A model generated the notes under the pieces. That model did no database searches. It was not told the DNA's origin and worked only from the letters and a program-made list of their open reading frames with translations. Below, one piece after another: positions 13,198 through 30,494 of a DNA stretch of 64,000 bases (position 1 is its first letter; each line of letters begins with the position of its first letter). Both the position numbers and the translations under genes were made by a program. This stretch comes from Sulfuriflexus mobilis (GTDB lineage Bacteria; Pseudomonadota; Gammaproteobacteria; AKS1). The DNA lies in contig NZ_AP018725.1 of assembly GCF_003967195.1 (NCBI RefSeq), forward strand, positions 2,418,001 through 2,482,000, in the 5' to 3' direction.

Positions 13198-13237
13198 CTG
13201 TCATCAAACTGTCAAGGCGGTTTCATCTCGTCGTCAT
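13198..13237 (+). promoter_or_regulatory. Tandem Pho box upstream of the OlsB-like gene
   Basis: Four PhoB half-sites stand at exact 11-bp spacing: CTGTCAT (13198), CTGTCAA (13209), GTTTCAT (13220) and TCGTCAT (13231). The first pair is nearly the consensus CTGTCATAAAACTGTCAT. The array ends 51 bp before the ATG at 13289, right for PhoB activation of that gene. Confidence 0.85.
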
Positions 13238-13288: not shown

Positions 13289-14134
13289 ATGGGCAGTAGT
13301 CACTTTGATTATGCAGATATGGCCAGAGGTACGCATCAGGATACACACACACTGCACGCATCTCTGGTGAATTCGATCATCGATATCCGCCAGACATTTA
13401 CATTACGCCGGTTTGTGACCGCGGGAAGCCACTCAAGCCCCCATCACGCGACAGAAGCGTTTTTTGAACGGGACAACTTTGATGTGCATAGTCGGCATAT
13501 CGTCGTCAAGGATGGGCGACAGGTAGTGGCCACCGCAAGGCTCTGCACGCGTGAACATGCGGAAGAAATCGGGCGCTTCTATTCGTCCACAAAATTCGAT
13601 ATCGGGCCTATCATCTCCCAGACCGGAAACCTGCTCGAACTCAGTCGTATCAGTATCCACCCTGACTATCAGGACGGTACCGCATTACAAAGCTTATGGC
13701 AGGGTATCACGCAGTTCTGTGACGATAAACGGATTGACCAGCTGATAGGTAATGTGGGCATCCCGCTGAAATATGCTTACACTCAGGCAGTGATAGATAC
13801 ACTCCGGCGACACTATCCGGCAGGTAAACACCAGCATGTCCAGCCTCGTGTGCCACTGACACACATGCAGGTACCGCAGGCGACCAGTGCCATCATGCCA
13901 CTATTGCTACAGAGCTACCTGCAGCGGGGCGCACGCCTTTGGGGGCCGCTCACTGGGATGCCGCGACCAACAGCGCCGAGCTGTTACTCATACTCGGGCC
14001 CAGCCAACTCAACAAGGCACAAAACCGCAACTTCGCCTAAGCAGAAAGATACACCTTTAAAATTGCTCAGCGCTGATATGCCGTACGTCTTTGCCTTTGA
14101 CCAGGTAGATCACGTATTCGCATATATTGCTTGA
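13289..14134 (+). CDS. OlsB-like GNAT acyltransferase, probably frameshifted near its end
   Basis: Residues 1-218 match the hemolysin/OlsB acyltransferase fold that N-acylates ornithine for ornithine lipids: FYSSTKFDIGP, LLELSRISIHPDY, SLWQGITQFC and PLLLQSYLQRGARLWG. After the five Gs at 13941-13945 the frame gives unlike residues and runs 78 bp antisense into phoU. One extra G would instead give WGAAHWDAATNSAELLLILG and a TAA at 14038-14040, the normal C-terminus (250 aa), 16 bp short of phoU. Start MGSSHF follows a GAGGGG site. Phosphate control comes from the Pho box; whether this is OlsB itself or another acyl-ACP transferase is unproven. Confidence 0.8.
   Translation: MGSSHFDYADMARGTHQDTHTLHASLVNSIIDIRQTFTLRRFVTAGSHSSPHHATEAFFERDNFDVHSRHIVVKDGRQVVATARLCTREHAEEIGRFYSSTKFDIGPIISQTGNLLELSRISIHPDYQDGTALQSLWQGITQFCDDKRIDQLIGNVGIPLKYAYTQAVIDTLRRHYPAGKHQHVQPRVPLTHMQVPQATSAIMPLLLQSYLQRGARLWGPLTGMPRPTAPSCYSYSGPANSTRHKTATSPKQKDTPLKLLSADMPYVFAFDQVDHVFAYIA
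13941..13945 (+). other. G5 run, probable frameshift site in the acyltransferase
   Basis: Reading with six Gs restores a family-like C-terminus and a stop at 14038-14040. It may be a true mutation, phase-variable slippage or a sequencing/assembly error in the homopolymer. Confidence 0.75.
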
Positions 14135-22293: not shown

Positions 22294-22333
22294 CATGACA
22301 GCTTGGTGAATGATATATGACAGTTTTATGAAA
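22294..22333 (-). promoter_or_regulatory. Tandem Pho box upstream of pstS
   Basis: Plus-strand half-sites CATGACA (22294), GGTGAAT (22305), TATGACA (22316) and TATGAAA (22327) are spaced exactly 11 bp. The distal end overlaps the last codons of phoR (stop at 22326-22328). The array begins 76 bp before the pstS ATG. Confidence 0.87.
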
Positions 22334-23639
22334 CTTTTTCTGTGACTGTGACAATCTGTTCAGGGGGGAAATCACAGCGGAACACACTGCCCTGACCGAC
22401 CTGGCTTTCTATGTGCAAGTGGGCACGGTGCCGTTGCAGGACATGCTTGACAATGGCCAGCCCCAGACCCGTGCCCCCGCTATGCCGGGAACGGCCGACA
22501 TCGACACGGTAAAAACGCTCGGTGAGGCGATCAATATGTTGTGTCGGGATACCTATGCCGGTATCACGTACGGCGAAGTGTGCGCCTTCATCATCGCGAC
22601 ACCACGACAGGCTGATCTCGCCGCCGGCGGGGGTATAATTCACTGCGTTGAATACCAGATTGGAGAAGGCGCTACGCAGCTCTTGATCATTACCGGTGAT
22701 AAATAACTCGTCATCACACTCCAGGCTGATCTGTTGATTCTTGTAACCGCTCAGACTGCGTGCCTCCTCCAGCAGCATCTTTAATAATTGCGCGACATTA
22801 ACCGCCTCATGGCTCGCCGTGTACTTCTTCTCGGACTCGAGGCGGGATAGCAGTAATAAATCGCCGATAATACTTTGCAGGCGGGAGGCCTGTTCACTCA
22901 TGCGCACAACCACATCATCGAATTCATCGCTATCACGGTTATCCGCCTCGGCAAACAATTCCAGGTAACCACTGATAACAGTCAACGGGGTGCGCATTTC
23001 GTGCGAGACATTAGCAACAAAATCGCGACGCATTTCTTCCAGGCGCTGCATATGGGTGATGTCACGAGCAATCAACAGACGTTGATCGGTACCATAGGCA
23101 ACCACGCGTATCGAAAGTGTCCGGCTATCATCAATGGGCGAGAGCAGCGTCAAGGGCTCTTCAAACTCTGCCCGCAGCATGTAGTTCACCAGGGCCGGGT
23201 TGCGAATCAGGTTCAATATGCGCTGTCCCAGGTCATGGGTGGTATGTATGCCGAGCAGGCGCGTGGTGGCACTGTTACACCACTCTATGGACCCCTCGTT
23301 ATTTAACACCACAATGGCATTGGGCAGGGCCTGCGATGCCTCCTGGAAACGGCTCAGGCGTGAGACCAGGCGTTTATGCCGCCGCCTGTTGCGCTGACGG
23401 AAGCGGTGCAACTGAATAAATATCTCTTCCCAGATGCCGCTACTTTGCGGCGACTCACCGCTCAGGCGCTTTTCTATCCAGCGGCCCAGCTTGGCCAGGT
23501 TATGGATGTGCCAGGCCAGGTAGAGGAGGCTGACCAGCAACAGCCAGGAGAAGAAGTTTCCGAATAGTCCACTCAGTACCAGGGCGACACCGGCCAGCAA
23601 TCCCATGCGCCAGATTTCTTCTACCCAGAATCGATTCAT
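22326..23639 (-). CDS. phoR: Phosphate regulon sensor histidine kinase PhoR
   Basis: PhoR controls PhoB phosphorylation in response to the state of PstSCAB-PhoU. The 437-aa protein has two membrane segments within residues 12-45, a Lys/Arg-rich linker, a PAS domain at about 95-195 (ALPNAIVVLNNEGSIEWCN), HisKA with ANVSHEMRTPLTV (His213) and a HATPase domain ending TGLGLAIVKHVLQRH. The order phoB then phoR with a 2-bp gap and the adjacent pst genes make the assignment firm. Confidence 0.97.
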   Translation of the reverse strand: MNRFWVEEIWRMGLLAGVALVLSGLFGNFFSWLLLVSLLYLAWHIHNLAKLGRWIEKRLSGESPQSSGIWEEIFIQLHRFRQRNRRRHKRLVSRLSRFQEASQALPNAIVVLNNEGSIEWCNSATTRLLGIHTTHDLGQRILNLIRNPALVNYMLRAEFEEPLTLLSPIDDSRTLSIRVVAYGTDQRLLIARDITHMQRLEEMRRDFVANVSHEMRTPLTVISGYLELFAEADNRDSDEFDDVVVRMSEQASRLQSIIGDLLLLSRLESEKKYTASHEAVNVAQLLKMLLEEARSLSGYKNQQISLECDDELFITGNDQELRSAFSNLVFNAVNYTPAGGEISLSWCRDDEGAHFAVRDTGIGIPTQHIDRLTERFYRVDVGRSRHSGGTGLGLAIVKHVLQRHRAHLHIESQVGQGSVFRCDFPPEQIVTVTEKVS

Positions 23640-26250: not shown

Positions 26251-27900
26251 CTATTTAAAGGCATTCACCATGGTCTGCAGGGCATCACTCTGCGTTGCGG
26301 TATGTTCTGCCAGGACCATGGCCTGTTGAGAATCCGTTGCCGTTTGTATAGATAGACCGGAGATGGCATCAATACTGCGCACGATCTCCTCGCTCACTGC
26401 AGTCTGCTGCTCCACCGCACTGGCTATACACTGGTTGGTCAGGTTAATCATGGCCAGAGCCTCATCGATCCCGTTAAGCACACGATTCGCCTCGCGGGCG
26501 TGTGTCATGCAGTCAACGGACGCCTCACGCCCCTTGTCCATGACCACAACCGCCTCGCTCGCGCCTTGCTGGAGTTCCTGGATGATCACCTGTATCTCAC
26601 GCGTCGAGGCCTCGGTGTTACCCGCCAGCACCCGGACCTCGTCGGCGACCACGGCAAAGCCCCGGCCCTGCTCACCGGCACGGGCCGCCTCGATCGCCGC
26701 ATTCAATGCCAGCAGGTTGGTCTGCTCGGCAACACCACTAATGGTCTCGAGTATCTTGTTAATGCCCTGGGCCTGCTGGTTGACACTGCGAATCACCTCA
26801 CTGGCCTGTTCCACCTCACTGGCCTGTTCCACCTCGCTGGACAAACCCTCCATGGTATCGACCACCCGCTGCACCACCACACGCCCTTCACCGGCCTGGG
26901 TAACGGCGCCCCCCGTGGACTCTGAGGCCTGATGGGCGTTACCGGAGACTTCCCTGACTGCCGCCGACATCTGCGACATAGACAAAGACACATGTTCAAT
27001 GCCTTGCTGTTGCTGCTGCATGCCCTGGTAGTTTTCTTCTGCAGCCAGTAGCAGACCGGCAGCTGAGTTATTTAATTGTCGGGTCGAATCCTTGATCCTG
27101 TCGACCAGCGCCTGCATTGCCGACATAAACACATTAAAACTGTCCGACAGGGCTGCCAGTTCGTCCTTTGAGTTGATCGGCAGGCGGTAACCCAGATCGC
27201 CCTGGTTATTGCGCACATCCGCCGCGACAGCGGTAATCGACTTGACGACCCGGTCCAGGGGATTGAATACCATACGCCCAATCAACCAGAAAAATATCAC
27301 GGCAAGGACAAGCGTGACCACGACCAGTACCACCATCACGTTCCGGCGCTCTGCAGCCATATCATTATGTATCTGTGCCAGTGTGGCATCGCGCTTGACC
27401 CACACTGCGGCCACGATCTCGCTGAGAATGCGTACGGGTTGACGGTCCATGCCGCGCACGTACTTGTCGGTGGTGATGTGCGGCTTGTGCTCGGCCAGTT
27501 TGTATACTGGCAAAGCCGTACGATAGCGCTTGCCCATTTCCTCATGTGCATGGGAAAAGGCCAGTATCTTTTCATACAATTCCTGATCGTCTTCCAGTTC
27601 CAGCAACAGTTCATCGACCAGTTCACGGGTTCGGCGCTCCTGCTCATTAAAACCGCCCAGGTGCTTGTCATACAGGGCATCATCATAACCACGCAGGAGG
27701 ATATTCTTCCATTCCTGTACCTGGGTCTTGAACTCCACCTGCGCCCGCAAAGCCAGCGACATCTGCCTGGCATTGGCATTATTCACCTCATCCGCCTCGG
27801 TAAAGGCGGCCTCATAATGTTTTGCGATTAACATCATGGCCACAAGAAAGACAACGATCGATGAAATGAATATCGTAATCAGTTTACCCTTGATGCTCAT
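26251..27900 (-). CDS. Methyl-accepting chemotaxis protein
   Basis: A 549-aa transmembrane chemoreceptor: first membrane segment at about residues 8-26, a helical periplasmic sensor of about 155 residues, a second segment at about 190-208, HAMP, and a full signalling domain with the hairpin tip [32 protein letters not shown] (cited from about 391). It overlaps the EAL-GGDEF gene by 4 bp (ATGA) and is probably co-translated with it under a Pho box. An 18-bp tandem duplication at 26796-26831 adds six residues (EQASEV) to the coiled coil. Confidence 0.95.
26796..26831. repeat. Perfect 18-bp tandem duplication inside the chemoreceptor gene
   Basis: The unit cctcactggcctgttcca is repeated without mismatch (26796-26813, 26814-26831). 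In protein this gives [15 protein letters not shown]. Six residues do not fit the seven-residue heptad of the receptor coiled coil. Confidence 0.85.
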
Positions 27901-29744
27901 AACAGACCCTCCTGTCCGTCGGTTTTGGGTGGCGTAGCAAAGGCCCGCTGTACACGCCGCTCAATGAACAGGCTGTTGCCAACTATATTCTTGGCATGAT
28001 GCTTGGCATGGCTGGCCAGCTCGGCGATATCGGCATGAGAAAGATACTGTTCAGGGTTCACCATAATGACGCCAATCGACAGGCTCATAATCGGGTAGAA
28101 TTTTTCATCCCCATCCCGGGATATGGCAAGTATTCCGCCTCGCTCATTATCCGTATGGTTATAGAACTTGACTATCTCCTTCTCAAAACTGCGCAGGATG
28201 TTATTACAGCGTTCTGCCCAGTTATCACTGAGAAAAATAACGATAAAATCATCACCCCCAACATGACCAATAAAGTCTCCAGATGTATCGATATGCTGGG
28301 AAAGGATATCGGCGATCAACTTTATTACCTGGTCCCCTTTTCCATAACCATAGACGTCGTTATACGGTTTAAAGTTATCAATATCGCAATAGGCCACGGC
28401 AAAGCGACTTTCGCCGAGCATCAATTCATCCAGCCTTTCGTAAATCGGCACATTGCCCGGCAACAGGGTTAGGGGATTGGCATAGCGGGCATTACGTATT
28501 TGCAGCTTGGTGATCTTGCGTAACAGGTCCAGGACCTTGCCAAGGCCTCTGTATTCACCGCCTTCGACAATAATAAAGTCCGCCTCGAGCTGCGACTTCA
28601 TGCTGTCGGTAACCAGTTTACTAACTTGTTCGATGCCCCACTGTTTTTCCACAATCACCACTGATTTGTCGGCAATATCAATAACGGATTTGTTTGCATA
28701 CAGTGAACGTCCATACTGGGTCGAAAAGGTTGCAAGCAGCTGGTTGCGACGAATCAGCCCCAGGGCCTTATTATTGTTATCGACAACCGGGATTGCTGTC
28801 AGCGATTCATTTTCATGAAACAACTGGTGTGTCGCATCCAGGGTTGTGTCAGGGCGCACATGTGCAGTTTGCACCAGCAGATCCGCGACACTTTCGGACG
28901 TTTGCTTCAGGTGTTTCTTGCATTCATGTGATACTGCGCACTGAAACAGCTTGCCGGGGATTACATAAGGGGGCGATTCGGCAGGACGAGCGAAGTAATA
29001 GCCCTGGCCAAAGGGGATACCCATGGCCGAGATCGTTCGACACTCGTCCTGGGTTTCTATGCCCTCGGCTATAACCTTGCAATCAAGTCCCCGTGCGATG
29101 TCTACAATCGAGCGCAGGAAGGATTGCTTGACCTTGTCTTCATGGATGTTCTGGATAAAATGCCGATCGACCTTGACATAATCCGGGCGCAGTTCGGACC
29201 AGGTACGCAAGCCTGAGTAACCGGCGCCGAGGTCATCAATGGCGATCTCAAAGCCCATTGTCTTGTAATGATCAATCGCCTTACGCATGACCTCAAAGTC
29301 ATACAGGGGATACTGTTCGGTCAGTTCGATGACCACATTCTCAGGTCTGATACCAATCTGATTAAGTATCTCCAGGGTCAGGCCTGAACGGTGTTGTGGT
29401 CCGAGCAAACTTTGCGGGGTGGCATTGAGAAACAACTTGCCCTGCAAGCGCCTGGACTGAAAACCCTTGATGCCACACTTGCGGCATAACATATCCAGTT
29501 CATTCAGCCTGTCTTCACGTATGGCCATATCAAATAGTGTGACCGGACTATGGAAGGCGCTGTCTGAAGGCCCCCTGATCAGGGATTCATAACCGTAGAT
29601 GGTCTGCTGATTCAGGTCGACAATGGGCTGGTATATAGCCGTCAGAGATTCTGTTTCAAGAATATCCAGGAAGACCAGGCTTATCCAATCAGCATCCTGC
29701 TGTGCATGCTCCATGCACAGTTCGTTAGTGCATTGGCTAGTCAT
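27897..29744 (-). CDS. EAL-CBS-GGDEF c-di-GMP turnover protein
   Basis: A 615-aa cytoplasmic protein. The EAL phosphodiesterase domain (about residues 25-270) keeps the catalytic set: YGYESLIRG (ESL in place of EAL), [29 protein letters not shown] and [13 protein letters not shown] pair spans about 280-400. The C-terminal GGDEF domain has GGDDF and [12 protein letters not shown]. Both making and breaking of c-di-GMP are possible. CBS domains suggest control by adenine nucleotides. It heads an operon with the chemoreceptor and has a tandem Pho box upstream. Confidence 0.93.
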
Positions 29745-29798
29745 GGCAAATATTCCTATAAAAGTGTGGTTTTATAGGCAGCCATGATCGGCACAAGC

Positions 29799-29838
29799 AA
29801 TGACAAACAGATGTCAGTTATATGACAAAATTATGAAA
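29799..29838 (-). promoter_or_regulatory. Tandem Pho box upstream of the EAL-CBS-GGDEF gene
   Basis: Plus-strand half-sites AATGACA (29799), GATGTCA (29810, weak), TATGACA (29821) and TATGAAA (29832) stand at exact 11-bp steps. The last pair is the same as in the pstS box. The array begins 55 bp before the start codon. Confidence 0.75.
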
Positions 29839-29906
29839 TATCCTCTCGCCTGGCAGCCGCAACAAGCGATATGGTCATAAGACTGTCACACAGGGGAGAT
29901 TTCTCT

Positions 29907-30359
29907 TTAATGCCCCGGGAATATCGTACGACTGATATTTTCTTCCGTCGGGTCGGTGATCTGGCTCAATGCCACGACCTGGTCAGCGGCCTCCTTGACG
30001 ATAGCATCGAGCTTGCCCACCAATTCGGGATTGTGTGGTGCGTTTTTCTGTTCCACCATCCTGAACAACTGCATCTGGTTAAGAAAATTATTCAGGATAT
30101 GCTGTGTGGCACGTGAGGTCTGCATGAACACCTGGATGCGTTGTTGCTCTTTTTCCAGTAAGCGCTGGGTGTTGTGGCAGGCATAAAAGCCAAACCCTAT
30201 CACCAGCAGGGCGATAACCGTGCGCATGTATATCTCGTTCGGATCGGTCGGGATAAGCGCAAACGCTTCACCAAAGACAATAGTGTGAACCCAGGATTCA
30301 ATCACCCAGTAGAGTATGGCGACGAAAAAACCTATGCGTCTGTATTTTCCAGCTTGCAT
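29907..30359 (-). CDS. Two-span membrane protein with a DHp-like helix
   Basis: From MQAGKYRRIGFF (ATG at 30359, AGGTGG upstream) the protein is 150 aa with two membrane segments (about residues 10-30 and 45-65). It then has a cytoplasmic helix, SRATQHILNNFLNQMQLFRM, that resembles the His-containing dimerisation helix of histidine kinases, but no ATP-binding domain follows. A longer start at 30428 is possible. Function unknown; a kinase-like scaffold or phosphotransfer role is speculation. Confidence 0.65.
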   Translation of the reverse strand: MQAGKYRRIGFFVAILYWVIESWVHTIVFGEAFALIPTDPNEIYMRTVIALLVIGFGFYACHNTQRLLEKEQQRIQVFMQTSRATQHILNNFLNQMQLFRMVEQKNAPHNPELVGKLDAIVKEAADQVVALSQITDPTEENISRTIFPGH

Positions 30360-30494
30360 GGACCACCTGTTATCTAAAAATATCATCACAAGGATCGGCG
30401 ACCTCGTCGCACACCCAGCCAGTAACAATGGAAAAGTCTAGCAAAATGGTCGTGTTTGTATAGAAACCGCTGTATAGCAACGGAAATGGAGCCT

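Follow-up and report, generated by a model that had tools for sequence, protein, structure and literature searches.

Gene organization of the locus

Within the window, the whole 64,000-nt stretch of the Sulfuriflexus mobilis genome that we analyzed, a predicted PhoB-binding array lies on the minus strand upstream of two overlapping genes, one for a predicted c-di-GMP phosphodiesterase (here called rapA-like) and one for a transmembrane chemoreceptor.

29799–29838, minus strand: predicted PhoB-binding array, four half-sites with an 11-bp period, conserved before homologues
29838–29832, minus strand: half-site 1, TTTCATA
29827–29821, minus strand: half-site 2, TGTCATA
29816–29810, minus strand: half-site 3, TGACATC
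29805–29799, minus strand: half-site 4, TGTCATT
29784–29789, minus strand: candidate −10 element, GATCAT, at the same offset from the last half-site pair as the TAnnnT of homologous promoters
27897–29744, minus strand: rapA-like gene, 615 aa, predicted c-di-GMP phosphodiesterase from its EAL-CBS-GGDEF domains, alignment and model
26251–27900, minus strand: transmembrane chemoreceptor gene, 549 aa, with periplasmic sensor, HAMP and MCP signalling domain
26800–26835, minus strand: perfect 18-bp tandem duplication (GAGGTGGAACAGGCCAGT twice), lengthening the N-terminal arm of the chemoreceptor's signalling hairpin by six residues
23642–24361, minus strand: phoB, the presumed regulator (TIGR02154 above cut-off)
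22326–23639: phoR, after phoB (TIGR02966 above cut-off)
22295–22333, minus strand: Pho box of pstS, the comparison promoter, with the four-half-site layout of the rapA-like box

The rapA-like ATG is at 29744, leaving 54 nt between the last half-site and the gene. At the other end, the rapA-like stop codon TGA (27899–27897) and the chemoreceptor ATG (27900–27898) share the sequence ATGA at 27900–27897, an overlap that had been described in the initial annotation. Just upstream of the rapA-like promoter, a gene for a small putative membrane protein occupies 29907–30428 on the minus strand; its product has no Pfam match, and no counterpart was found in three genus mates.

A predicted PhoB-binding array upstream of the rapA-like gene

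The initial annotation had placed half-sites at 29799, 29810, 29821 and 29832, and these positions are the low ends of the four minus-strand 7-mers, spaced by exactly 11 bp; all of its coordinates are correct. It had also equated two of the half-sites with those of the pstS box, and indeed half-sites 1 and 2 are TTTCATA and TGTCATA in both arrays. We scored half-sites with a weight matrix, its weights set by hand after the general consensus of E. coli; the scores have meaning only relative to one another, and every control used the same weights. With this matrix, the rapA-like box is the top four-site array on both strands of the window, followed by the pstS promoter at 22333 and then an array at 13199. 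When 10 Mb of sequence was simulated with matching trinucleotide composition, arrays of three or four half-sites that scored as well did not occur. The pattern TKTCATNNNNNTGTCAY has six matches in the 3.11-Mb genome, compared with one for the reversed control pattern; three of the six are within the pst/pho region of the window, and one precedes a phoU-like/pit gene pair elsewhere.

The promoter thus described has direct half-sites, an 11-bp period and, in place of a −35 element, a candidate −10 element at a fixed distance, although the −10 match itself, GATCAT, is weak. The same offset holds GAAACT in the pstS promoter and TACCTT in the 13199 promoter. A further Pho-like pair, GGTCATAAGACTGTCAC, is located at 29873–29889 on the plus strand, ~35 bp upstream of the rapA-like box, and no plus-strand gene lies behind it.

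Pho boxes were also seen before other genes of the genome. The array at 13199–13237 (plus strand) has four half-sites and precedes a gene at 13289–14134, between nadA and phoU, whose product matches PF13444 and scores below the cut-offs of the OlsB models. This arrangement suggests that ornithine lipid is synthesized by an OlsB-like acyltransferase in phosphate starvation. A strong Pho box, TGTCATAAAAATGTCAT (locus L135:1242–1258, genome 3042241–3042257), also stands before a gene pair encoding a PhoU-like protein (PF01865) and a Pit-type transporter (PF01384); Pit-type transporters are commonly regarded as a low-affinity system.

The box and its spacing are conserved before distant homologues

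We found homologues of the rapA-like protein over nearly its full length in 33 of the 313 good-quality gammaproteobacterial genomes sampled, the closer ones with 42–53% identity. The named homologue set includes many Pseudomonas, Halomonadaceae, Oxalobacteraceae, Shewanella, Methylobacter and Desulfobulbus; one homologue, from Marinobacterium sedimentorum (locus L105:6001–7719), has one in-frame stop codon within the matched stretch. For 86 non-redundant homologues, we scored the sequence upstream of the gene, with a stringent cut-off of at least 13.4. A half-site pair reaching this score at 11-bp spacing on the strand of the gene was found in 42 of them, while the other spacings from 7 to 20 bp gave 0–3 of the 86, the reverse strand gave 3 and shuffled sequences averaged 0.25. 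The half-site spacing, on whose conservation before orthologues the initial annotation had staked its proposal, is therefore kept. The aligned hits also share a TAnnnT motif 27 bp after the start of the half-site pair, which is where the −10 element of a PhoB-dependent promoter is expected. At a score of 13, the number rises to 46 of 86, in contrast to 1 of 24 for the upstream regions of chemoreceptor sensor-domain homologues, which served as a control.

No box was found for 31 of the 86 homologues, indicating that not all of the family is under Pho control. Most subgroups of the tree have the box and some do not, among them the relatives of Desulfobulbus and the majority of those of Gallionella; it was therefore lost or gained several times. 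Many Pseudomonas homologues have three half-sites as compared with four in S. mobilis. Since three genus mates, whose dgkA identity to S. mobilis is only 62–63%, carry neither the rapA-like nor the chemoreceptor gene, they are uninformative for conservation.

The rapA-like protein as a member of the RapA family

The rapA-like protein comprises an EAL domain (residues 29–254), a CBS pair (about 286–412) and a GGDEF domain of the GGDDF type (425–586). Pfam detected CBS once, and the AlphaFold model (mean pLDDT 84.5, pTM 0.47) has two CBS-like α/β units between EAL and GGDEF. Among the matches listed in a comparison of this model with PDB structures, all are EAL domains, and the EAL part superposes on EAL proteins of solved structure (232 residues aligned with 6ij2, Z 28.1, rmsd 2.1). 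The domain calls of the initial annotation are correct; membership in the RapA family had been missed.

In Pseudomonas fluorescens Pf0-1, the c-di-GMP phosphodiesterase RapA is controlled through a Pho box and is required for detachment at low phosphate (PMC3032545). In the published model, PhoB~P binds a Pho box upstream of rapA, RapA depletes c-di-GMP, LapG is freed from LapD and the biofilm detaches (PMC3032545). PA3258 of P. aeruginosa has the EAL-CBS-GGDEF layout, and its homologous phosphodiesterase is RapA of Pf0-1 (PMC12900916); PA3258 is not among the PhoB targets given in the main text of a P. aeruginosa binding atlas. Homologues from the P. fluorescens group (loci L062 and L074, from strains other than Pf0-1) match the rapA-like protein at ~43%. 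Because PA3258 provides the layout and the homology to RapA, and RapA in turn is Pho-controlled, the rapA-like gene is, judged by its sequence, best filed with the RapA family, by way of homologues rather than of the Pf0-1 RapA sequence itself. The order EAL-CBS-GGDEF, the complete EAL catalytic residues and the upstream predicted PhoB box are all found in S. mobilis.

The ten EAL active-site positions checked, E53, N107, E140, E143, D170, D171, K191, E227, E230 and Q247, are invariant in 39 sequences. The motif of the GGDEF domain is GGDDF across the 39 homologues, save one GGDDY, and no RxxD I-site precedes it in the rapA-like protein or in the eleven homologues inspected. An active diguanylate cyclase carries GG(D/E)EF, from which the rapA-like protein departs. 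The complete EAL catalytic set together with the family-wide GGDDF points to c-di-GMP breakdown, and the simplest reading is a phosphodiesterase with a regulatory GGDEF domain and CBS pair; Caulobacter PdeA has an allosteric GGDEF domain of a comparable sort. Low phosphate would thus most likely lower c-di-GMP.

The chemoreceptor partner

The chemoreceptor has a helical periplasmic sensor domain of ~160 aa with the motif FKxQVQEWKNxLLRG. Sequence comparison of this domain with Pfam and the PDB gave no convincing hit, and 4HB_MCP_1 is matched weakly by two relatives. A single-sequence AlphaFold prediction gave a four-helix pattern with a pLDDT of 65, which is too weak for a structure search. 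The same sensor domain is also present in open frames that do not have the chemoreceptor signalling part (loci L137, L139 and L141), some of which continue into an apparent histidine kinase or GGDEF/EAL output. CtpH and CtpL of P. aeruginosa are chemoreceptors used under low phosphate (PMC4926252), and the S. mobilis protein has no NCBIfam match to either. The studied fragment of CtpH, residues 60–214, is about as long as the S. mobilis sensor domain, whereas the sensor domain of CtpL, at 286 residues (PMC4926252), is much larger, so that the S. mobilis protein does not fit the CtpL type of phosphate chemoreceptor. None of the aligned homologous chemoreceptors has the duplication, and since six residues do not fit the heptad, signalling may be altered and the insertion may impair the chemoreceptor.

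Members of the RapA family do not, as a rule, have a chemoreceptor gene as neighbour. A chemoreceptor gene lies within 6 kb of the homologue in ~14 of 110 homologous loci, in mixed and mostly other orientations. In Sideroxydans (locus L090), a different chemoreceptor gene is located 8 nt downstream of the homologue on the same strand, the only such locus seen, and there is no clear Pho box. This arrangement suggests that the pairing of a phosphodiesterase with a chemoreceptor may arise more than once.

A probable RapA-type circuit in phosphate starvation

Taken together, we consider it likely that the locus is a RapA-type phosphate-starvation circuit, in which PhoB would switch on the rapA-like phosphodiesterase and the chemoreceptor, c-di-GMP would fall and cells would leave surfaces. 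Low phosphate would be sensed by Pst/PhoR, and PhoB~P would bind the array at 29838–29799 and activate a promoter with its −10 element near 29789, from which the rapA-like gene would be transcribed. The chemoreceptor would be expressed along with it by translational coupling through the ATGA, co-transcription being presumed. The EAL domain is predicted to hydrolyze c-di-GMP to pGpG, with the GGDDF domain and the CBS pair most likely acting as regulatory, nucleotide-binding parts. The drop in c-di-GMP would then make LapD let go of LapG and relieve a brake on flagellar motility, so that cells leave surfaces, and the chemoreceptor would supply a direction signal.

Homologues of LapD and LapG are encoded by neighbouring genes; both exceed the cut-offs of Pfam (PF16448 and PF06035) and fall short of the NCBIfam equivalog cut-offs. 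With three flagellins also encoded, outputs for both dispersal and swimming are available in the genome. No match to the LapA retention module (NF033682) was found in the genome.

The strong box, the box and its spacing before distant homologues, and the characterized relative RapA together give good support to Pho control of a c-di-GMP enzyme. That the array is a chance occurrence or a site for another protein is very improbable: about one third of the homologues have no box and the PhoB site is itself predicted from sequence, but the score, the specificity for spacing and strand and the fixed distance to the −10 element all speak for PhoB. It is also unlikely, though less so, that the box is real and the protein is a diguanylate cyclase or a switchable bifunctional enzyme, in which case phosphate starvation can raise c-di-GMP. 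The GGDEF domain is not obviously decayed, as D454, N462, D463, G496, G497 and D498 are kept in all 39 homologues; on the other hand, the canonical E at the fourth position is replaced by D throughout the family, the EAL active site is complete, and RapA, the characterized member, depletes c-di-GMP.

The initial annotation had proposed that phosphate starvation shifts the c-di-GMP level and taxis together. The c-di-GMP part is well supported, given the strong conserved box and RapA, while for taxis the evidence is the ATGA overlap, and joint Pho control of taxis is plausible, if unproven. A reading that we place somewhat below an even chance is that the box usefully controls the phosphodiesterase alone and that the chemoreceptor is an incidental, possibly defective passenger, which fits with the first half of the RapA-type explanation. 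The rarity of chemoreceptor genes near the homologues, the control in which the upstream region of only one of 24 sensor-domain homologues reaches 13, and the non-heptad duplication in one arm of the signalling hairpin all favour such a passenger, but the overlap couples translation of the chemoreceptor to the upstream gene, and the Sideroxydans pairing, 8 nt apart on one strand, likewise speaks for a partnership.

Implications for the Pho regulon

The proposed RapA-type circuit agrees with that of Pf0-1 in the EAL-CBS-GGDEF layout (via the homologue PA3258; PMC12900916), the upstream Pho box, the phosphodiesterase residues and the presence of LapD and LapG, upstream of which RapA works. It differs in the ATGA-overlapping chemoreceptor gene downstream, in having four half-sites where many Pseudomonas homologues have three, and in the LapA retention module, which was not found. 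PhoB control of c-di-GMP metabolism is also shared with Vibrio cholerae acgAB, known to us from their description as genes for c-di-GMP metabolic enzymes (PMC12351708). Given the RapA family match and the chemoreceptor partner that is not conserved, the S. mobilis locus is mostly the known RapA circuit, met in a new organism and extended by one component, and what is new is the measured breadth of Pho-box conservation and the chemoreceptor partner.

RapA had been described as the route by which a single soil pseudomonad leaves the biofilm at low phosphate. The occurrence of the box with its exact spacing before distant homologues, from Halomonadaceae, Oxalobacteraceae, Shewanella, methanotrophs and others, suggests a general proteobacterial response, and the chemoreceptor operon makes it possible to test whether dispersal and taxis are linked under phosphate starvation. 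We tentatively propose, as a broader idea that we consider less likely than not, that in gamma- and betaproteobacteria the control of EAL-CBS-GGDEF phosphodiesterases by PhoB may be an ancient and widely distributed part of the Pho regulon, to which S. mobilis may have added a chemoreceptor with an uncharacterized sensor, so that one promoter would both release and steer cells in phosphate starvation.
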